56,542 bases of DNA, from positions 1 to 56,542 of the IMG/VR virus record IMGVR_UViG_3300017765_000004; one strand, given 5' to 3'. This DNA comes from a virus. A program made the position numbers and the translations under genes. The notes beneath the pieces were generated by a model, which had not been told where the DNA came from, did not search any database, and worked only from the letters and a program-made list of their open reading frames with translations. Of the stretch, positions 3,001-51,427 are shown one piece after another; within the stretch, counting starts at the first letter, position 1; the number at the start of each line of letters is the position of its first letter.

Positions 3001-5786
3001 TCAATTCAATCTTCTCTAGTGATGTTATACAGGTCAATGATGAAATTATGGTCATCAATGATGCAGGTTCTGGTGGTAGTGCTACTTTCAATGTTCAGAG
3101 GGGTAAATTAGGCACAACAATTCAGTCTCATGGTGTTGGATCAACAATTACCAAACTGGGTGGTAATTATAATATTGTTGAAAATAGAATCCACTTTGCT
3201 GGAGCACCTTTTGGTAAAAATCCAATAGGCACAGTTACTAATCCACCTGACTCAAGAGATTTTAATGGAATTACGACTAGTTCATCATTCCAAGGAAGGA
3301 CATTCCTCAGAAATGCTGCTTTAAGAACCAGTTCTGAAACATATGATGATAATTACATTTTTGATGATATTTCAACAGACTTCACTGGTGTAACTAGTTC
3401 ATTTATATTAAAATCAGGTGGTCAGAATGTTACTGGAGTAGCAACTGGTAATGGTGTAATACTAGTAAATGGTATATTCCAACTTCCTAAAGGAGTGCAA
3501 CCAGAAGATAATAATTATAACATTATTGAAAGTGTTGGTGTATCAACTATAACATTCCAAGGATCTGTAAATCCACATGGTTATGATCCAGGTGCTGGAG
3601 AGTTCCCAATGGGAGGAACAATAGTATCTGTAGGATCAAGCAGTGGATCTGGATATCAATCACTCGTATCAGCAGGTGGAACAGTGAATGTTTCCATTGC
3701 AGGAACAGTTTCATCCATCAGCATAGGTAACAGTGGAAGTGGATATAGATCTGGCATTCAAACTACCGTGAATGTTGCTGTTACAACAGCATCTACAGGG
3801 ATTCCAAATCTTGAATTTATTGGAACAGCAACTGTAAGTGGTGGAATTGTAGTTGATGTTAATATTACAAATCCAGGTTCTGGATACACATTTACAAACC
3901 CACCATTAGTTGTATTTGATGATCCACTTTCCTACAGTGATATTCCTTTAGAATACACTTCATCATCAGTTGTAGGTTCTGGACAAAGTGCAACAGTAAA
4001 TCTTACAGTGGGGAGAGGAACTGGAATTATTGATTTCTCAATAAACAATAGAGGATATGGATATGGTGTAGGAGAGGTCTTAACAGTTGATGTTGGTGGT
4101 GTCACAGGTATCCCAACTGACATTTCAAAATCATTTGAAGAATTCTCACTTACCATTGAAAGAACACAAACTGATTCATTCAATGGATGGTCACTTGGTC
4201 AATTCACTGTTCTTGATTCATTTGAAAATGAATTTGATGGATTTAAGAAAACATTTAGATTAACAGAGAATGGTGAAACAGTTTCAATAGTTGCACAAAG
4301 AGGTTCAACAATTAATATTGAAGAAACTCTTGTTATATTGATCAATAATATCCTGCAAAAACCAAATGAGGCATTTACTTTTGAGGGTGGCAGCATTGTT
4401 GAATTTAAAGAAGCACCAGTATCTGGTCAGACTGCACAAATATTATTCTACAAAGGAAGTGGTGACGATATTGATGTTGTCTTTAGAGATGTTGTTGATA
4501 CTGTAAAAGTTGGAGATTCTCTGGATATTAATCATAATCCAAGATCTGGTCAATCAATTATTCTTGATCAAGATAAGAGAATTGTTACAGGCATTAACAC
4601 CATTGATACTGTTGAAACTAATCTTTACAATGGAGTTGGTATTAATTCTGATGGAACAATCATTAGACCAGTCACATGGTGTAAGCAAACAAGTGATTTA
4701 GTTGTAAATGGTGCAAAAGTTAATAAGAATAGGGGTGAATATGAACCAATAATAAGACCATCTTCTTATTTAATTAATAATGTTTCTACATCATCTACTG
4801 AGATTTATGTTAATAATCTTGTGCCATCATTTAATCCAATTAACGAAATATCTAATTCAAATGTAAGAAATGCATATCAAAAAATTGTTCAAATTTATGA
4901 GCAGAGCAATTTTGTTGGTGCTGCAGCCACAGCTATAGTTTCTGTTGCTGGAACTGTATCATTATTGAATCTTACTAATTCTGGTCTTGGATATACTGTG
5001 GCACCTAATGTGTTTATTTCAAATGTGAGTGGTTCTGCTTCTACAGAAGGTAGAGCAGAGGCAACTGCATCCATTGGGGCAGGTGGATCTATCACATCTA
5101 TTGTGGTTTCATATGGTGGCACTACCACAGGGACTGCATATACAACAACAAATCCACCATCAGTTCTGATTGAACCTCCTGCATCTGTTAATGAAAAACT
5201 CAATGTAACAGAATTTTCTGGAGATTATGGGATGATTGTTGGAATTAATTCAACAAAAGTTGGAGCACAGCATAGATTGATATTTGATACCTTCATTCCA
5301 AAACATTCTCTCATGAGAGATACTAATGTGGTAGCAACTGCATCCACTATAAGTGGTATTTCAACAAGTGATTATTTCACTATTTTTGGAACAAATATTT
5401 CAATTGGTGATACATTTGCAGCAAGATCTACAGATGGAACAACCACAGTAGGAATAGCATCAACAGCACTTGATTGTGTTTATCAGGTTCAATCTTATGA
5501 AGATGTAAATGTTACATGTTTTGTTGGAGGAAATACTGGATTTACAACAACAGTAAGAAGAGTGTCAGTGAATGTTGATAGAATTGCTGTTGGATTTGCT
5601 AGCACCTCCACATCTGAACTTGGTGAGTACAGTTGGGGTAAATTAACTTTAGATGATAGAACAAGACCTAGAGACTTCAGTGCTCACACAATGAGTGGTA
5701 TTGGATCTGCTTATTCTAATAGTGGTATTTCAACTTCTGCTGTTGTTAAGAGATTTAATGCTCTTAAATCTCAAAGTTATTCATAA
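1..5786 (+). CDS. 7: gp7-like baseplate wedge protein (5' end outside window)
   Basis: The reading frame is open from base 3 with no start in view, so the N-terminus is missing; about 1,927 residues are visible. The assignment as the gp7 baseplate-wedge equivalent rests on its position directly before gp8 and on size, not on motifs, and it is longer than T4 gp7 (about 1,030). It is beta-rich and Ser/Thr/Gly/Asn-rich. It holds several xGxGY motifs (near bases 3646, 3736, 3872, 4050, 4980) and one RGxxGTxxxxH module (bases 3091-3131) that recur in other proteins here. It would act in the outer baseplate wedge. An alternative is a virion structural protein fused to, or replacing, gp6/gp7. Arginine is written almost only as AGA. 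A late promoter octamer lies just after the stop. Structural role fairly sure, gp7 identity less so. Confidence 0.6.
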   Translation, partial: DQLLDVESASIGIIQNNQFNSNNIGFGYPSDRTLRPIANLPEILRIQPLASFGRIGITSSGNNYLIAPDLVVFDVVSNRVITSVDLEFNLGDPVVNIRKNTTGLNDVNPRIIPINNTNGVGVNTLSFDSSTNRVKLYLNTTFSNQEDFPFTVGKNVLVEKIDVGLNTTGKGYNSEDYSYSLFEVTSVNPKLGGTGAYVEYSLDEVLSVGETPGAVITAQYGKVVPEHQFPTFDITLSKNNYIVGEKVSINDDPLNLGVVESWDPLSEMLKVSIGKELQVNDIVRGLSSDTQGDIRSKDDFDSEILIGAGTTIINGWQRSAGFFNETTQRIPDNQYYQKFSYSIRSKVPFKQWDSTVSALNHAAGFAKYADLQIISELENSFAAVVKPDDSNIETIVDIISTSDTNCDYNFDYVRDRTVFIKGEIHSTEIVFQNKIIADYFESVGNRVLSIDDISAEFNSNERPDRFSSTGSFENTFKFNKMLTFAKDIQFTDEKQFSVVNLIQDSETGYIREYSILESVGRNLGSYDYLVTSDGWDLTFNPVLFEFNNYTTSVISFSGLSDYSGIGSVHAIGTAVSTFSEQHSVPTGIATTIATIPLTSRSAKVLVMLQDSSDNYVGNELNIIHDGTNVSLLEYGNSADSNSTNYVGFGSFDANIVGGNIIVNYTSNASSTLTANTQVVSVSDTATGIGTITLDVGRLKSSYVSIPVSGAGLANTITSFDLPYQSGYYYVTVKDTTNNVYESFEIAAVDSGSETRELFVEFANISTGSSIGQVGISTAGTSNLDIVYTPNASTAVEVRTFGIELQPYDENENSTEVDYFNWKLKSSRGSYTGTKFEIRTDFDLKHEGLPIFKRIIDGSNPSIADTSSNLIKVPNHFFVTGENISYSNSGAGTTQSLGITSTNISGVVTDKLPDSLFVVKIDESSIRFADTAENALKVIPQTLTLDSVGIGNSHVFTSKKQNTKALVAIDNMIQSPIVATGVTAALGQDIIFATSFSVTGVNSIFSSDVIQVNDEIMVINDAGSGGSATFNVQRGKLGTTIQSHGVGSTITKLGGNYNIVENRIHFAGAPFGKNPIGTVTNPPDSRDFNGITTSSSFQGRTFLRNAALRTSSETYDDNYIFDDISTDFTGVTSSFILKSGGQNVTGVATGNGVILVNGIFQLPKGVQPEDNNYNIIESVGVSTITFQGSVNPHGYDPGAGEFPMGGTIVSVGSSSGSGYQSLVSAGGTVNVSIAGTVSSISIGNSGSGYRSGIQTTVNVAVTTASTGIPNLEFIGTATVSGGIVVDVNITNPGSGYTFTNPPLVVFDDPLSYSDIPLEYTSSSVVGSGQSATVNLTVGRGTGIIDFSINNRGYGYGVGEVLTVDVGGVTGIPTDISKSFEEFSLTIERTQTDSFNGWSLGQFTVLDSFENEFDGFKKTFRLTENGETVSIVAQRGSTINIEETLVILINNILQKPNEAFTFEGGSIVEFKEAPVSGQTAQILFYKGSGDDIDVVFRDVVDTVKVGDSLDINHNPRSGQSIILDQDKRIVTGINTIDTVETNLYNGVGINSDGTIIRPVTWCKQTSDLVVNGAKVNKNRGEYEPIIRPSSYLINNVSTSSTEIYVNNLVPSFNPINEISNSNVRNAYQKIVQIYEQSNFVGAAATAIVSVAGTVSLLNLTNSGLGYTVAPNVFISNVSGSASTEGRAEATASIGAGGSITSIVVSYGGTTTGTAYTTTNPPSVLIEPPASVNEKLNVTEFSGDYGMIVGINSTKVGAQHRLIFDTFIPKHSLMRDTNVVATASTISGISTSDYFTIFGTNISIGDTFAARSTDGTTTVGIASTALDCVYQVQSYEDVNVTCFVGGNTGFTTTVRRVSVNVDRIAVGFASTSTSELGEYSWGKLTLDDRTRPRDFSAHTMSGIGSAYSNSGISTSAVVKRFNALKSQSYS

Positions 5787-5818: not shown

Positions 5819-7375
5819 ATGGCTGCGATAATAACTGATCAACTTCGTATTCTAAATGCTAAGAATTTTGTTGCTGGAATTCAGTCTAGTAGCAATTCTT
5901 ATTATTCATTTATTGGACTTCCTAATCCTGCTTCATATCAAAGCACGTGGAATCAAAATCCACCATCCCCACTCGATAGTCTAGATCAAACTAATCAGTA
6001 TTGGGATACAATGCTGGCAATGAAAAAGATTAATAGTAGTGATATTACTCAGGTTGTAAGGAAGAATACATGGCAGTCTGGAACCACATATGATATGTGG
6101 AGAAATGATATTACAATTGATAATCAATCTCAACCATCTGGTGCAGCAGATATCTACTCAGCAAATTATTATGTAATGAACTCTGATTTCAGAGTTTATA
6201 TCTGTTTGTATAATAATGCAAATCCTGAAAACAGTTTTGAAGGTGGACCTTCTTTAGATGAACCAACATTTACAGATTTAGAACCAAGAACTGCTGGTAG
6301 CAATGGTGATGGATATATTTGGAAATATCTTTACACCATTAAACCAAGTCAAGCTATCAGATTTGATTCAACTAATTATATTCCTGTGCCTAGTAATTGG
6401 TCAACCAGCACTGATGACTATGCTGTAAGACAAAATGCTGATGTTAGTGGTCAAATTAAGATTATTACTATCAGAGAAAGAGGTGCTGGACTTGGAAATG
6501 CACAAACATATTCTAATGTTCCTATAAATGGAGACGGAATAGGTGGAAAGGCAACTGTTGTTGTAAATGCTGATGCTAAAATTGAGTCAGTTTCTGTATC
6601 AAATGGTGGAACTGGATATACATATGGAACATTAGATCTAAAGGCTGGTGGAATACCAACTGGAACTACTGATCCTGTTTTTAATGTTATTATTCCACCA
6701 CCTGGTGGTCATGGAAAAGACATTTATAGAGAGTTGGGTGCATACAATGTTCTTGCTTATGCAAGATTTGAAAATGACACTGAAAATCCTGACTTTATTA
6801 CTGGTAATGAATTTGCCAGAGTTGGTCTCATTGAGAATCCAACTGTCTTTGATTCATCTGGTATTTTTGAGCAAGATAAAGGCAGTGCCACTTATGCTCT
6901 TAAATTAGTTGGTACAGGATATAGTAGTGCAACATTTACAGCAGATAGTATAGTAACTCAGACTGTTGGTCTTGGATCAACAGCAGTTGGAAGAGTTGTA
7001 TCCTATGATCAGACCACAGGAGTATTGAAATATTGGCAAGATAGGTCAAATTCTGGTTTCAATACCAATGGTACACAGAATTCATCACCAACTTTTGGTT
7101 TTTCTGCCTTAAGATTTACACCAGCAATTACAAGTGGTGGAAGTTATAGCATTGTCCCTACTTCTGGTAATACATTATTCATTCAAACATCATTTACAGG
7201 TATATCGACAGTAATAAATAATAGAGATTATTACTTGGGTCAGCAGTTCACAAGTGGATTTGCTAACCCTGAGGTTGAAAAATACTCTGGAAATATCATA
7301 CATGTTGATAATAGACCAGCAGTAACCAGGTCATCATCTCAAAAAGAAGACGTCAAAATCATTTTGCAGTTCTAA
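5819..7375 (+). CDS. 8: gp8 baseplate wedge subunit
   Basis: At 518 residues it is longer than T4 gp8 (334) but keeps the family pattern: an N-terminal segment with YYSFIGLPNP, a tryptophan-rich stretch (QYWDTMLAMKKI), a region where the chain is described as crossing into YICLYNN, and the diagnostic DGYIWKYLYTI block near residue 163, matching DGYVWEYLFEI of T4 gp8. After this core an extra region carries an xGxGY motif (near base 6607) like those in the gp7-like protein and gp14. In T4, gp8 dimers join gp10, gp7 and gp6 in each wedge. The gene follows the gp7-like gene by 32 bases and precedes the DUF4815-type gene by 6, as expected for a baseplate operon. No clear Shine-Dalgarno sequence precedes the ATG. 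Confidence 0.88.
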   Translation: MAAIITDQLRILNAKNFVAGIQSSSNSYYSFIGLPNPASYQSTWNQNPPSPLDSLDQTNQYWDTMLAMKKINSSDITQVVRKNTWQSGTTYDMWRNDITIDNQSQPSGAADIYSANYYVMNSDFRVYICLYNNANPENSFEGGPSLDEPTFTDLEPRTAGSNGDGYIWKYLYTIKPSQAIRFDSTNYIPVPSNWSTSTDDYAVRQNADVSGQIKIITIRERGAGLGNAQTYSNVPINGDGIGGKATVVVNADAKIESVSVSNGGTGYTYGTLDLKAGGIPTGTTDPVFNVIIPPPGGHGKDIYRELGAYNVLAYARFENDTENPDFITGNEFARVGLIENPTVFDSSGIFEQDKGSATYALKLVGTGYSSATFTADSIVTQTVGLGSTAVGRVVSYDQTTGVLKYWQDRSNSGFNTNGTQNSSPTFGFSALRFTPAITSGGSYSIVPTSGNTLFIQTSFTGISTVINNRDYYLGQQFTSGFANPEVEKYSGNIIHVDNRPAVTRSSSQKEDVKIILQF

Positions 7376-7381
7376 AAAATT

Positions 7382-10300
7382 ATGCCACAGGAAACTAACC
7401 TCAACGTTGCTCCTTACTTTGATGATTTTGACCCGCAGAGCAATTATTACAAAGTACTTTTTAAACCAGCCTATCCAGTTCAAGCTAGAGAACTGAACAA
7501 TCTGCAGTCAATTCTGCAAGATCAGGTTGAAAATCTAGGAAATCACTTTTTTAAAGAAGGCGCAAAGGTAATTCCTGGGCAAACAAACTATTTCAGCACC
7601 TTTCATGCTGTCCAAATTAACTCATCTTATTCTGGAATTTCTGTAAGTGCCTATTTGGACCAGTTGATTGGCAAAAAAATCACAGGTAGAACATCTGGAA
7701 TTCAAGCAAAAGTTGTATCTTACATAACAGATACAGTTTCTGAACTTGAAAATTACACTTTGTATGTAAATTACATAACTTCTGGGTCAGATTCTGATGT
7801 TGAACAGTTTTCTGATGGAGAAATTTTAAATACTGATGAAAATATTTCATTTTTAGATACTTTTATATCATCAGGAGAGGGTTTTGCACAAACTTTGTCA
7901 CAAAATGCAACTGCAATTGGTTCTGCATTTGGAATTAGTCAAGGAATTTACTTTTTAAGAGGACATTTTGTTGATGTTTTTGATGAATTGTTGATTTTAG
8001 ATCAATATTCCAATAAACCAAGTTATAGAATTGGTTTTTTTGTAAAAGAAGAGTTAATTTCTTCAGCAAATGATCAAAGTTTAACTGATAATGCACAAGG
8101 ATTTAATAATTACACTGCTCCAGGTGCTGATAGACTTAAAATTTCTGCAACTTTAACAAAAAAAGCACCTGATGACTTCAATGATCAGAATTTTGTTCAA
8201 ATTGCTGAAGTAAAAAATGGTATTTTAAGAAATATCAATAAAAATACTAATTTTAATAACAATTTAAAGGATGAATTAGCAAGAAGAACCTTTGATGAAT
8301 CTGGTCATTACTACATCAAAGAGTTTTTGACTGTTGCAAGAGAAAGTTTGAATAATGGATATGGAAATAAGGGAATTTACAGTGTAGGTCAATTAACTGA
8401 TTCTGGTAATGTGCCAAGTGATGATCTTGGAGTTTATAAAATATCACCAGGAAAAGCATATGTAAGAGGATTTGAGGTTGATAGGCCAAGAACTACATTT
8501 CTAGATTTTGTCAAACCAAGAACCACAAAAAAATTAACAAGTCAAGGTATAAACTTTGGATTTGGTCCTACTATTGCTGTTAATAGAGTAAGTGGATCAC
8601 CAAATATTGGTTTTAATACTGATTATACAATCTCTCTAAGAGATCAAAGAGTAGGTGTTGGTTCTTTTGTATCACCAGGAACAGAAATTGGAATGGCAAG
8701 AGTATATGATTTTTCTCTTGAGTCAGGTTCTTATGAAACCAACTTGAATATCAACAAATGGGATTTATCACTTTACGATGTTCAGACATATGTTGATGTT
8801 AGGATGAATCAACCTCATACATTGACTGTTCCAACGTTTGTTGAGGGACAATCAAGTGGAGCTACAGGATTTATAAGATATCCTGTTGAAGTTGGTGTTG
8901 CAATGACAGTATATGGTGTTAGTGGTGATTTCCATATTGGTGAGAAACTTGTTTTTAATGGAATTGGTACTGATGCTAGAACTTCTACTGCAGTCACAGC
9001 ACATACAATATCTGATGTTCAATCTGTATTTGGTATAACAGCAGTTGGATCAACATTCACTGCAGATATTGTGCCTACTGCTGCAAGAGTCATTGGCATT
9101 GCATCAATTACAGCTAGAACTGGAAATCCACTCACATCAACTGTAACATCTCCTGGATTGGCATTTGCAGGAATTACTACAATTGGTGACTTGGTCAGTT
9201 TTAGTGTTCCTGGACAGTCAAACAAAAACTTTGCTAGAGTTACTCAAGTAGATACAGCTTCTATTGGAATAAGCACAGTAGCATCAGTAGCAGGTATTTG
9301 TAGTGGACTATTAAATGTTGATTCTGTAAGTGTTTCTGACTTCACAATATTAAAATCTAATTTTGTAGATCAAGCACCTCCTGGCAATATTGCTGGTAAT
9401 AATTCACTTTATAGTGTTTTTCAGAAAAAAAATATTGAGTCAGTTGATGTAAGTGATGTAACTCTTGATATAAGAAGATCATTTACTTTAACTCTTAATA
9501 CCTCTGGAGAAAGCTCTACAGTGAGCACAGGGACTGATGAAGTATTTTTAGCATTTGATGAGGAGAGATATTCATTAACGAGATCTGATGGTGGTATTGA
9601 ACCAATCACATCAAAAAATCTTGTTTTTACTTCAGGTAATCAAACACTCAGATTTGTAGGTCTAGAAGGAATTGAAGATCCTGATGCTCTTTTAATTGCA
9701 ACAATAAGAAAATCAAAGATTAAGTCAAAAACAAAGGTTAGAGTTCCAGCAGCAACTGTTCTTATTGACAAATCTTCTAACTCTTCTTCTGGATCAACTC
9801 CTACCAGTTTAAATGATGGACTAACATTTGGTAATTATCCATATGGAACTAGAGTGCAGGACAAAATTATTTCATTAAATGTTCCTGATGTTAAGTGGAT
9901 TTACGGTATTTTTGAAGCAAATGGAACAGAGACCCCTACATCACCAAATATGACTGTAGGATCATTAGATGGTCCAACTTCAAAAACAGATGATTTAATT
10001 ATTGGTGAAGAATTTATTGGTCAAACATCAGGTGCTCAAGCTGCATATGTTGGCAAGAGGGCTGATAATTCAATTGATTTCATCTATGAAAATCAAACAA
10101 GATTTTTTGAAAATGAAATAGTCAATTTTCAATCATCAGGCATTAATGCAATTGCATCTGATGTTAGTAATGGCAGCAAAAATATTACATCTGACTTCAA
10201 TCTTAATGGAGGATTTACTAAAAGTCACTATGATTATTCAAGAATTGTAAGAAGACCTGGAGCTTCAATTCCAACAAGAAAAATAAAAATATATGTTTTA

Positions 10301-30347: not shown

Positions 30348-30803
30348 ATGCGCTCTTTTAACCAGTTTATATCAGAAACAGCAACATCATCAGCTACGAA
30401 TAGTGTTGGCACTGATGGATTTACTAATGACTCAAATCCATCAGGACCTGTTGCTGGTTTTGATAAAAAATTGTTTAGGGGTGATGAAGATCTTCTATCA
30501 CAAGATTATCAGACAGCTGCAGAGACTGGTGAAAATAGATATAGATTTTCAAACATATATCCTGTAATGAAAGTTACTCTTGGTAATAATATGGGTGATG
30601 GCCCATCAATTGACTCCATGGTTGCAGCATCAAAAGAATTTGTCAATAAGATGGAGCAAACATCCCATGATACAGTAAAAAAGTATTTTACAGAGTTTAA
30701 AGAAGAGTGGAGTAATAAATATAAAAAGAGTATTGACTGCTCTAATCCTAAGGGATTTTCTCAAAAAGCACATTGTGCTGGTAGGAAAAAGAGATCAAAA
30801 TGA
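30348..30803 (+). CDS. Candidate head-internal protein with gp23-arm-like N-terminus
   Basis: The start is ATG 30348, two bases after the fibre stop and nine bases after GGGAG (30334-30338); a longer in-frame start would run through the fibre gene. The 151-residue product begins MRSFNQFISE, like the MKTYQEFIAE capsid-targeting peptide of T4 internal proteins, with an I-x-E site that gp21-type protease could cut. The next residues (SSATNSVGTDGFT, then GPVAGFD) match the arm of this phage's own gp23 (SSAANSAGTGGFT, GPVAGFD). The C-terminus is basic with Cys/His (IDCSNPKGFSQKAHCAGRKK), a likely nucleic-acid-binding tail. I infer a packaged or capsid-bound minor protein. The stop overlaps the next ATG. 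Confidence 0.75.
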   Translation: MRSFNQFISETATSSATNSVGTDGFTNDSNPSGPVAGFDKKLFRGDEDLLSQDYQTAAETGENRYRFSNIYPVMKVTLGNNMGDGPSIDSMVAASKEFVNKMEQTSHDTVKKYFTEFKEEWSNKYKKSIDCSNPKGFSQKAHCAGRKKRSK

Positions 30804-40098: not shown

Positions 40099-40749
40099 AT
40101 GAAACTAATCAGAGAAGAAATAGAATCAGTTGATTTTCTTGTAGAAGAAAGAAATGGCAAGAAATCAATGTATATTGAAGGTGTCTTCTTACAAGGAGAT
40201 ATCAAAAATCGTAATGGCAGAATGTATCCAATGGAGACTCTGAGAAAGGAGGTCCAAAGATACACTGAAAACCACGTAAACTCAGGAAGAGCACTTGGTG
40301 AACTGGGACATCCAGATGGACCAACTGTAAATCTTGACAGAGTATCACATAAGATTGTTTCATTGAGAGAAAATGGAAGCAATTTTATTGGTAAAGCAAA
40401 AATTCTTGGCACCCCTATGGGTAAGATTGCACAAAATCTTATTGATGAAGGTGTCAAACTGGGTGTTTCATCCAGAGGCATTGGTTCTCTGAAACCTACA
40501 AGAGAGGGAGTCAATGTTGTAGGTGATGATTTCATGCTGGCAACAGCAGCTGATATTGTTGCTGATCCTTCAGCACCTGATGCATTTGTTGAAGGAATCA
40601 TGGAAGGAAAGGATTGGGTATGGGATGGTGGTGTGCTTCGTGAGAAGTATGCTGCAAAAACATACAAAGAGATTAACACACTTGTCACTCAACAACAACT
40701 TGATGAGAAGAAGTTGGATCTCTTCAATAAGTTCCTGAATAACCTTTGA
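40099..40749 (+). CDS. 21: gp21 prohead protease
   Basis: A serine protease of the herpesvirus-assemblin-like fold. The start MKLIREEIESVDFLVEE, the block RNGRMYPMETLRKEV, the histidine in LGELGHPDGP (His71) and the serine in KLGVSSRGIGS (residues 124-125) match T4 gp21 (212 residues; 216 here). It cuts scaffold, core and capsid proteins after (L/I)xE sites during prohead maturation. Those sites at the ends of the two capsid-targeting-like peptides in this window would be its substrates. It lies before gp22 and gp23 as in T4. Confidence 0.95.
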   Translation: MKLIREEIESVDFLVEERNGKKSMYIEGVFLQGDIKNRNGRMYPMETLRKEVQRYTENHVNSGRALGELGHPDGPTVNLDRVSHKIVSLRENGSNFIGKAKILGTPMGKIAQNLIDEGVKLGVSSRGIGSLKPTREGVNVVGDDFMLATAADIVADPSAPDAFVEGIMEGKDWVWDGGVLREKYAAKTYKEINTLVTQQQLDEKKLDLFNKFLNNL

Positions 40750-40803: not shown

Positions 40804-41889
40804 ATGTCTCGTGGAGATTTACAAGAAATGGAGGCAAGCACAAAGCAATCCAAGACTGCTGTGAATGCCAATGCGAAACCTGCTGATCCTATGCCCACTA
40901 TGGCTGATCCAGGAACACAACTGGGTTCTGTAGAGGACCTTGGAGGACCAACACCTTATAACTACAAACCTGATGATGACTCTGCTAAGCTCAAAGAGCC
41001 TAAGCTTGCCACTGTCAAGGATGTAGTTACCAAAGGTGCTAAGCCTGCTGATCCTATGCCTAAAGGTATGAAGGAAGACGGGGAAGTAGATACTGAAGCA
41101 ACTATTGAAGAAGATCAAGAGATCACTGATGAAGTTGTAGAAGAATCTGAGGAGACAGTTGAAGAGTATGATATTGAAGAGGATGTAGATGCCCTCTTTG
41201 GTGGTGAAGAACTCTCTGAGGAATTCAAAGAGAAAGCAAGAACAATCTTTGAAGCTGCTCTTGGAGCAAAAGTCAAAGAAATCCAAGAGTCTCTTGAGGC
41301 TCAGTATGCTGCCAGAATTACTGAAGCAACTGAGGAACTGAAAGGTTCACTCCAAGAGAGAGTAGATTCCTATCTTGAGTATGTTGCTCAAGAATGGATG
41401 GTAGAAAATGAACTTGCTGTAGAGCAAGGACTTAAAACTGAGATGACTGAATCATTCCTTTCAGGAATGAAGGGTCTTTTTGAAGAACATTATGTAACAA
41501 TCCCTGAAGATAAGTATGATGTCCTCGAGAATATGGTAGACAAACTTGATGAAATGGAAACCAAGCTCAATGAGCAGATCAATAAGAATATTACCCTGAA
41601 CAAGAGACTTGCTGAGTCTTCTGCTCAAGGAATCTTAGATCAAGTTTCTGATGGTCTTGCAGACACTCAGAAAGAGAAGCTCGCTTCACTTGCTGAAAGT
41701 GTTGAGTTTGAAAGTGAGCAAGAATATCGTGAAAAGCTGGAAACCCTGAAGGAGTCATACTTCTCCAGAACAACCACATCTAAGGCAACACCTGAGACCC
41801 TCTCTGAGGGTGTAGATAGCACTCCTTCTCCTACTACTAGAAGCATGGATGCCTATCTCAGAACTCTGGGTGCCTTCAAAGGTAACTGA
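40804..41889 (+). CDS. 22: gp22 prohead scaffold
   Basis: A 361-residue acidic, mostly helical protein (T4 gp22 is 269). The N-terminal ~90 residues are Pro/Lys-rich with a repeated KPADPMP motif, followed by an acidic stretch (EATIEEDQEITDEVVEESEE) and then a long coiled-coil region (DALFGGEELSEEFKEKARTI, DKLDEMETKLNEQINKNITL). This is the scaffold around which gp23 assembles and which gp21 degrades. The C-terminus (RSMDAYLRTLGAFKGN) is likely the capsid-contact end. It is placed between gp21 and gp23. Confidence 0.9.
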   Translation: MSRGDLQEMEASTKQSKTAVNANAKPADPMPTMADPGTQLGSVEDLGGPTPYNYKPDDDSAKLKEPKLATVKDVVTKGAKPADPMPKGMKEDGEVDTEATIEEDQEITDEVVEESEETVEEYDIEEDVDALFGGEELSEEFKEKARTIFEAALGAKVKEIQESLEAQYAARITEATEELKGSLQERVDSYLEYVAQEWMVENELAVEQGLKTEMTESFLSGMKGLFEEHYVTIPEDKYDVLENMVDKLDEMETKLNEQINKNITLNKRLAESSAQGILDQVSDGLADTQKEKLASLAESVEFESEQEYREKLETLKESYFSRTTTSKATPETLSEGVDSTPSPTTRSMDAYLRTLGAFKGN

Positions 41890-41932: not shown

Positions 41933-43378
41933 ATGTTCCAATCAGAACATCTGCAGGAAAAGTGGAGTCCACTTCTCGACTATGAAGGTCTTGATCCAAT
42001 CAAAGATTCACATAGAAGAGCAGTAACCGCTGTCCTGTTAGAGAACCAAGAAAAATTTTTAAAAGAAGAGCAAGCATTTGGATCAGGTATGAACCTGATG
42101 GAAGGACCTCCTGCTTCATCTGCTGCTAATAGTGCAGGCACAGGTGGATTCACTGGTGGTGCCACTGCTGCTGGTCCAGTAGCAGGTTTTGACCCTGTTC
42201 TGATCTCCCTGATCAGACGTGCAATGCCTAACCTGGTTGCATATGACCTGGCTGGTGTTCAACCAATGAATGGTCCTACTGGACTGATTTTTGCAATGAG
42301 ATCCAGAAAGGATTCTCAATCTGGCTCAGAAACCTTCTTTGATGAAGTAGATACAGCATTCTCTGGGCAGAATGTTGGACTGGGTCTTACTGCTGCCAAC
42401 TCTGCTGCACAGCAGGCTGTTGGTATGGGTACAACTTCACAAGGTGGAACTAATCCATCTGTACTGAACCCTGTTGGTGGTGCTGGTGATAACCAGGCTT
42501 ATAACACAGGCACTGGCATGACCACTGGTGAGGCAGAAGCCCTTGGCACAGTAGATGCTGATGGTGCCTTCAACCAGATGGCATTCTCAATTGAGAAAGT
42601 CACTGTAACTGCCAAGTCAAGAGCCCTGAAGGCTGAGTACTCACTGGAGCTTGCTCAGGACCTCAGAGCCATCCATGGTCTGAATGCTGAAGCAGAACTT
42701 GCTAACATCCTCTCTACTGAGATCCTTGCTGAGATCAACAGAGAAGTCATCAGAACAATCTACAAGGTTGCTGAGCAAGGTGCTGTTTCTAACACTGCCA
42801 CTGCTGGCATGTTTGACCTGGACATTGACTCCAATGGTAGATGGTCTGTAGAGAAGTTCAAGGGTCTTCTGTTCCAAATTGAGAGAGATGCTAATGCAAT
42901 CGCTCAAAGAACAAGAAGAGGAAAGGGTAACATGGTTATGTGCTCTGCTGACGTTGCTTCAGCACTGACCATGGCTGGTATCCTGGATTACACCCCTGCC
43001 CTGAACTCCAACCTGAATGTTGATGACACTGGCAACACATTTGCTGGCACCATCAATGGTAAGTTCAGAGTTTACATTGACCCATATGCTGCTAACCTGA
43101 CTTCAGCAAATGCTGCCTCTGCCTCTGGCAACCAGTATTATGTTGTTGGTTACAAAGGCACATCACCTTATGATGCAGGTCTCTTCTATTGCCCATATGT
43201 ACCTCTGCAGATGGTACGTGCAGTTGGAGAAGATACCTTCCAGCCCAAGATTGGCTTCAAGACCAGATATGGTCTGGTTGCCAACCCATTTGCTGAAGGA
43301 ACCACCCAAGGTCTGGGTAGACTGCAAGTCAATAGCAACCGCTACTACAGAAGAGTTGCTGTTAAGAACCTCATGTGA
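41933..43378 (+). CDS. 23: gp23 major capsid protein
   Basis: The 481-residue HK97-fold capsid protein (T4 gp23 is 521). Typical blocks are AGPVAGFDPVLISLIRRAMP, VAYDLAGVQPMNGPTGLIFA and KARALKAEYSLELAQDL-like KSRALKAEYSLELAQDLRAI. The N-terminal ~56 residues are the helical scaffold-contact peptide; LME followed by GPPASSAANS is a plausible gp21 cut. Codon use is the most biased in the window (many CTG, GAC, GCC), as for a very highly expressed gene. A strong terminator follows. The arm just after the inferred cut resembles the protein at 30348. Confidence 0.98.
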   Translation: MFQSEHLQEKWSPLLDYEGLDPIKDSHRRAVTAVLLENQEKFLKEEQAFGSGMNLMEGPPASSAANSAGTGGFTGGATAAGPVAGFDPVLISLIRRAMPNLVAYDLAGVQPMNGPTGLIFAMRSRKDSQSGSETFFDEVDTAFSGQNVGLGLTAANSAAQQAVGMGTTSQGGTNPSVLNPVGGAGDNQAYNTGTGMTTGEAEALGTVDADGAFNQMAFSIEKVTVTAKSRALKAEYSLELAQDLRAIHGLNAEAELANILSTEILAEINREVIRTIYKVAEQGAVSNTATAGMFDLDIDSNGRWSVEKFKGLLFQIERDANAIAQRTRRGKGNMVMCSADVASALTMAGILDYTPALNSNLNVDDTGNTFAGTINGKFRVYIDPYAANLTSANAASASGNQYYVVGYKGTSPYDAGLFYCPYVPLQMVRAVGEDTFQPKIGFKTRYGLVANPFAEGTTQGLGRLQVNSNRYYRRVAVKNLM

Positions 43379-50662: not shown

Positions 50663-50691
50663 AATTTAAAAGGAGTAATGCCCACCAAAGT

Positions 50692-50715
50692 CCCCCCTAG
50701 ATCTCTCTAGGGGGG
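50692..50715 (+). terminator. Strong hairpin terminator before internal-protein gene
   Basis: CCCCCCTAGA (50692-50701) pairs with TCTAGGGGGG (50706-50715) around TCTC, followed by ATTGGTTTT. It ends the 50.3-50.7 kb early transcript, and a late octamer follows at 50725. Confidence 0.8.
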
Positions 50716-50724
50716 ATTGGTTTT

Positions 50725-50732
50725 AATAAATA
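50725..50732 (+). promoter_or_regulatory. Candidate late promoter before internal-protein gene
   Basis: AATAAATA, 7 of 8 matches to the late octamer, nine bases after the hairpin and 21 bases before the ATG at 50754. It makes this gene late, unlike its neighbours. Confidence 0.55.
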
Positions 50733-50753: not shown

Positions 50754-51392
50754 ATGAAAACTTTTTCAGAATTCATTGCAGAATCAGAACAACAGTCAGG
50801 TGCTCTTGCTGCACACTTAGCTAGAACTGCTGCAGATAGAGCATCACAGTCTGGAACTGTTGGTGGAACTGAAAAGAAGTTTGAGAAGAGACCTTCACTT
50901 GGTTTAAAACGACCATCATTTAAGAGAAAGGATAAGATAAAAGTTAAAGGACCAAGAAAACCAGCACCATATGGAAGTGGACCAAGACCACAAAAGGCAT
51001 TACCTGGATCACGTGATGATGTGCAAAAGGTAAATGTGAAGGTTGAAAAACCAGCAGAGAAGAAACCAGCACTGAAACCTTCTACCTCAAGCACATCCAT
51101 TGCTAAGAGATCATCACAAAGTATTAGAAATGCTGGTAAGAATACAGCAGGATCTGTTCAGAAAGCAAGAGTCAGAGTTGAACCTCAACAAAGACCTGCA
51201 CTGCAACCTGCTGCTAAGAGGCCAGCATTAAGACCTGCAGCAGAAAGAGGTAAGATAAAACCAGCAGCATCAAGACCTGCACTTCCTCCTGGATCAGGGA
51301 ATCCAATATCACCAATGGTAAAAGCAGCAGCAAAACAAGCAGCACTCAAGGCAGCACAACAGAGAAAGGCACTACCTCCTGCCAGATCATAA
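50754..51392 (+). CDS. Candidate internal head protein with capsid-targeting peptide
   Basis: A 212-residue protein beginning MKTFSEFIAE, eight of ten residues identical to MKTYQEFIAE, the capsid-targeting peptide of T4 internal proteins IPI-IPIII, with the gp21 cut expected after IAE. The rest is strongly basic, Lys/Arg/Pro/Ala/Ser-rich and likely disordered, with repeats of RPAL-type and PAAxRPAL-type units, suited to bind DNA. I infer that it is packaged with the genome, matured by gp21 and injected. It has its own late octamer between terminators while its neighbours look early. In T4 such proteins protect DNA or act on the host; its own target is unknown. Confidence 0.78.
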   Translation: MKTFSEFIAESEQQSGALAAHLARTAADRASQSGTVGGTEKKFEKRPSLGLKRPSFKRKDKIKVKGPRKPAPYGSGPRPQKALPGSRDDVQKVNVKVEKPAEKKPALKPSTSSTSIAKRSSQSIRNAGKNTAGSVQKARVRVEPQQRPALQPAAKRPALRPAAERGKIKPAASRPALPPGSGNPISPMVKAAAKQAALKAAQQRKALPPARS

Positions 51393-51405: not shown

Positions 51406-51427
51406 CTCTGAAACCAGAGAGTTTTTT
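51406..51427 (+). terminator. Terminator-like hairpin after internal-protein gene
   Basis: CTCTG (51406-51410), loop AAAC, CAGAG (51415-51419), AG, then six T (51422-51427). The stem is short, but the T-run is good. Confidence 0.55.

Follow-up and report, generated by a model that had tools for sequence, protein, structure and literature searches.

The gene at 50754–51392 in the 56,542-nt stretch of viral DNA analysed here (the window) raises the question of whether its small basic product travels inside the phage head. Its translation starts MKTFSEFIAESEQQSG, and the first ten residues, MKTFSEFIAE, agree with the MKTYQEFIAE of T4 IPII and IPIII at eight of ten positions, the differences being at positions 4 (F/Y) and 5 (S/Q). 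Mutational rules worked out for the T4 tag assign targeting mainly to residues 4 and 7, and cleavage to residues 8 and 10 (PMC9026906). Residues 7, 8 and 10 are identical to those of IPII and IPIII, and position 4 is aromatic in both. As in a T4-type propeptide of about ten residues, F4, F7, I8 and E10 are all present, with I8 and E10 providing the I-x-E ending noticed before, and they are conserved among homologues. A preliminary description made from the sequence had extended the eight-residue match to all three T4 internal proteins; this holds for IPII and IPIII but not for IPI, which begins MKTFKEFTSTTTPVSTITE, similar yet not MKTYQEFIAE, so that one peptide common to IPI, IPII and IPIII is inexact. 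Given the composition of the window, the pattern M[KR][TSN][FY]xxF[ILVMFC]x[ED] is expected by chance at ~2e-6 per gene start, or ~1e-4 over the window genes, and two gene starts fit it, those at 50754 and 30348. Most probably the gene specifies an internal head protein, late and nonenzymatic, with a T4-type tag, and the phage is a marine T4-like one related to cyanophages. The capsid-targeting role first proposed for the peptide finds support in its conservation among homologues, in a second, gp23-like tagged protein of the window, in tagged NMNATs of cyanophage virions and in a scan of IMG/VR with decoys. The features are collected in Table 1.

Table 1. Features of the tagged gene, its flanks and the head genes in the window.
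Feature	Position	Strand	Basis
Gene for predicted tagged basic internal head protein, 212 aa	50754..51392	+	ORF and homologues, dN/dS 0.17–0.37
Predicted capsid-targeting propeptide MKTFSEFIAE; predicted gp21-type cleavage after E10	50754..50783	+	Tag match and T4 rules (PMC9026906)
Predicted mature protein SEQQSG..., 202 aa	50784..51389	+	Composition and structure model
gp21-type prohead protease (Peptidase_S77), presumed processing enzyme	40099..40749	+	Pfam E 2.4e-34
gp22-type scaffold, presumed binding partner of the tag	40804..41889	+	Profile matches
gp23 major capsid protein; predicted cleavage between NLME and GPPASSAANSAGTGGF	41933..43378	+	Profile match and sequence
Second tagged protein, MRSFNQFISE then TATSSATNSVGTDGF...; mature start resembles mature gp23 N-arm	30348..30803	+	BLASTP, phrog_696
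AATAAATA, fits cyanophage late promoter NATAAATA; 28 nt 5' of ATG	50725..50732	+	Motif from PMC2984593; placement; homologues
Terminator-like hairpin, 13 pairs then GGTTTT; parts gene from upstream gene	50689..50718	+	Hairpin scan
Terminator-like hairpin 3' of gene, 5 pairs then T run	51406..51419	+	Hairpin scan

The same phage encodes a gp21-type prohead protease; the gene at 40099–40749 for which this had been claimed matches Peptidase_S77 (E 2.4e-34). In the mechanism proposed here, the first ten residues would bind the prohead core as a T4-type capsid-targeting sequence, the gp21-type protease would cut after Glu10, and the protein of 202 residues so released, basic and mostly disordered, would remain with the DNA inside the head and probably accompany it into the host. 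Packaging and cleavage are expected with high confidence, and injection, by analogy with T4, is probable.

The mature part is rich in Lys, Arg, Pro and Ala (51%), as described earlier, and with a pI of 11.7 and a net charge of +35 it is the most basic product of the whole window. Its AlphaFold model, in which the mature part is largely disordered with helices at the N- and C-terminus, is of low confidence (mean pLDDT 56), so fold-search matches would be meaningless. No Pfam family matches the protein, known DNA-binding domains included, and its likeness to histone-like or DNA-binding proteins is one of composition only. Among the PHROGs, phrog_3966 gives a weak match (E 0.059) confined to the tag region. 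The most likely role of the mature protein is to bind DNA, both in the head and during entry; we give about even chances to this, as a packing aid or a shield for the incoming genome, when set beside a host-directed role or a specific one in counter-defence. DNA condensation, anti-restriction and host takeover, the roles proposed at first, are alternative candidates. T4 IPII and IPIII (and IPI) likewise have a ten-residue N-terminal propeptide ending in I-x-E and are small and basic; they are late proteins, as is predicted for this one. The mature protein, in contrast, has no sequence similarity to the T4 proteins, in which the net charge is +5 and +10, and differs from them in its Pro/Ala/Lys repeats, its predicted disorder and its origin in a marine cyanophage-like virus.

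The late octamer attributed to the gene is present: AATAAATA fits NATAAATA, the late promoter of cyanomyoviruses (PMC2984593), and is kept in relatives. The ATAAATA within it (50726–50732), 28 nt ahead of the ATG, is one of 17 in the window, all on the + strand, and 11 of these sit 15–45 nt ahead of a gene start compared with 0.36 expected. Over the window as a whole ATAAATA is no commoner than chance predicts; placement alone is informative. All seven close relatives have the motif ahead of the gene, and the sequence upstream differs in four of them (L002, L003, L004 and L006). Flanking hairpins were also found where they had been reported, at 50689–50718 and 51406–51419; their number (two) is no more than shuffled sequence gives (mean 1.4), but the first has 13 pairs. 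The neighbouring genes are for recombination and transcription, not for the head, which counts against an internal head protein; the T4 IPII and IPIII genes, in genomes with a gp21 protease, similarly lie amid accessory genes, away from the head cluster.

The close metagenomic relatives (L001–L007) are 81–100% identical to the window protein over their best segments, and dN/dS against the window gene is 0.17–0.37. Within their tags the sole amino-acid change is at position 9, and silent changes occur at codons 3, 6, 7 and 8. Distant relatives (L012–L018 and L182) share 29–37% identity, with M1, K2, F4, F7 and E10 invariant. Absence of the peptide from homologues had been named earlier as a possible refutation; the tag is retained in all relatives found. 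The pattern-selected set A1 was left out as evidence here, its tag residues being invariant by construction. Relatives differ in length by insertion or deletion of Pro/Ala/Lys repeats.

In L012, L013, L015 and L016 a basic gene, A, precedes the distant relative, B, each with a tag or tag-like start. In L008–L011, A and B form one frame with a tag-like start, and the B junction carries no tag, as expected if the peptide acts at the N-terminus only. The fused junction of L011 (783–812) reads ...RMSEDYITEYQDPE, with an I-x-E site in place of the stop and tag of the split form; to judge by this sequence, internal processing is possible. The gene A family (SynMITS9220M01, P-TIM68, S-SM2 and RB11-B; hypothetical) resembles the 50754 protein in being basic and tag-bearing or tag-like, and adjoins or is fused with its distant relatives in uncultured viruses, but it is a different module and is missing from the window. 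Another tagged basic protein, of 168 aa and beginning MKTFQEFVLE, is encoded directly after the peptidase gene in L001 (7763–8269), with equivalents in L002–L004 and in P-TIM68 (118770). The window lacks it at the corresponding place; apparently a tagged gene was either inserted or lost there.

The reading frame of the second tagged protein of the window begins at 30348, not 30285. Here MRSFNQFISE is followed by TATSSATNSVGTDGFTNDSNPSGPVAGFD, and in the gp23 of the window NLME is followed by GPPASSAANSAGTGGFTGGATAAGPVAGFD. The 30348 protein is identical to the gp23 N-arm at 18 of 30 positions (BLASTP, E 0.021 for a single comparison) and phrog_696 matches both proteins; the predicted cleavage sites of the two are therefore close to register. 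From these alignments it looks as if the gp23 propeptide had been replaced by the tag. The protein (30348–30803) also has a C-terminal SNPKGFSQKAHCAG motif, common to many cyanophage proteins.

The NMNAT/cytidylyltransferase of the cyanophage core (T4-GC190) is tagged in all seven genomes examined. Five carry the strict pattern (S-SCSM1, S-SM2, P-TIM68, SynMITS9220M01 and RB11-B; L031, L035 and L036 are among the loci), and in S-SM1 and Syn9 the protein starts MKKFSAFLNE/SE. The tag is of the same type as that of the 50754 protein (MKSFLQFLKE, MKKFSAFLNE), whereas the rest is an enzyme of ~400 aa with nothing similar beyond the tag. NMNAT has been detected by mass spectrometry in virions of S-SM1 (PMC3037559) and S-SCSM1 (PMC9602691), and the accessible parts of these two reports give no packaging mechanism for it. 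Its presence in virions would be explained by a tag found in seven of seven genomes. The record of S-SCSM1 does not mark the tagged ORF30, a positional equivalent, as belonging to the virion, so a tag by itself may be no guarantee that a protein is detected.

A search of T4-like phages for such N-terminal tags, as the preliminary description had suggested, covered the window and eight phage genomes and gave 14 starts with the strict pattern: two internal proteins of T4, the NMNATs of cyanophages, small terL-adjacent proteins, the tagged families treated in this text and T4 61.1. The strict pattern without its Met occurs only three times inside long frames of the same sequences. In IMG/VR, DNA patterns for MKTFx[QE]FIxE and for MKSFx[QE]FLxE each match at least 120 stretches, and decoys with the same residues reordered match 1 and 6. 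Distance to an upstream stop was dropped as evidence for tagged starts, the few decoy matches also lying near open-frame starts. Among the matches listed, 73 of 253 tagged starts have ATAAATA in the 60 nt ahead of them, compared with 0.95% of random 60-nt stretches from the same loci; BLASTP of the 244 distinct tagged proteins, stripped of the tag, groups them into ~72 clusters; and ten stretches carry between two and four tagged genes, which often lie in tandem. The census was selected by pattern from a listing that gives minimum counts, and is a lower bound on diversity, not a source of frequencies. Pfam domains on tagged proteins include CTP_transf_like, ART-PolyVal (9.7e-24), S-AdoMet_lyase (1e-17), Zeta_toxin (5.3e-15), Glucosaminidase (3.8e-13), GNAT (4.3e-8), HNH and LysM. 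Peptidase_S77 is present in five of 13 census contigs, all five among the six longer than 100 kb, the negative shorter fragments being uninformative. In the uncultured virus contig L158, one strand carries a tandem row of four tagged genes, all different (6505–9422), and L224 has three. A tagged protein at 5547–6194 of L220 shows a phospholipase A2-like match (PF08398) that is weak and below the cut-off (E 0.0012).

That the 50754 product is a basic late protein outside the virion, its N-terminal match coincidental or serving another purpose, is very improbable: against it stand the chance expectation of ~1e-4 for the window, the keeping of the tag in all relatives, the tagged NMNAT in virions of two cyanophages, and decoy scans of 1 and 6 compared with at least 120. 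If it does enter the prohead core through its tag, the protein might help to shape the head as an assembly component and not be delivered, in the manner of T4 gp67 and gp68 or the morphogenetic role proposed for IPIII. T4 IPIII mutants have head-assembly defects and internal proteins co-purify with gp22 (PMC9026906), and the purifying selection that the 50754 gene seems to be under would suit such a part. It is nevertheless doubtful, since the protein has no likeness to the gp22, gp67 and gp68 families (no Pfam or PHROG match at E < 0.05), the gene lies outside the head gene cluster, and its length shifts through the repeats. Its distribution is patchy as well, tblastn with this protein as query and the low-complexity filter on giving no homologue in the named phages, cyanophages among them.

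Rather unlikely, too, is a specific counter-defence protein that is injected and blocks restriction or another host defence nuclease, as T4 IPI–IPIII act on GmrSD. All three T4 proteins inhibit GmrSD enzymes with the leader alone in common (PMC12373910), and elsewhere the tag is found on domains plausibly involved in conflict (ART-PolyVal, S-AdoMet lyase, Zeta-type kinase, HNH), but the mature protein is of low complexity and predicted to be disordered, unlike the compact fold reported for IPI, and no defence-related family matches it in Pfam or the PHROGs.

Beyond the preferred reading of the 50754 product as a tagged internal head protein, we lean moderately towards a more general one, in which the tag is a portable address label in uncultured T4-like phages that would load and deliver dozens of unrelated proteins, this one included. 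The labelled cargo would then, with somewhat better than even chances, comprise NMNAT, ADP-ribosyltransferases, a predicted S-AdoMet lyase, zeta-type kinases and acetyltransferases. If true, such a label would also account for the repeated and otherwise unexplained finding of NMNAT in cyanophage virions. It suggests a way for phages without alt, modA and modB to bring in proteins that act early. A tag carried by dozens of unrelated proteins could reveal what these viruses package and probably inject, and, being ten residues readable from sequence, it provides a predicted cargo list for virion proteomics. Finding the internal proteins of T-even phages by their leader is an established approach (PMC12373910). 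The open-access literature yielded no publication dealing with capsid-targeting tags in cyanophages; within that literature, three things appear to be new: that the tag occurs across marine T4-like phages, that it is linked to the NMNAT of virions, and that so broad a range of proteins carries it.

In T4 itself, the hypothetical 61.1 (L037; NC_000866.4, 18966–19130; 54 aa) begins MKTFKEFIKE, a full capsid-targeting match, and from this start it is possibly an unrecognised T4 internal protein.
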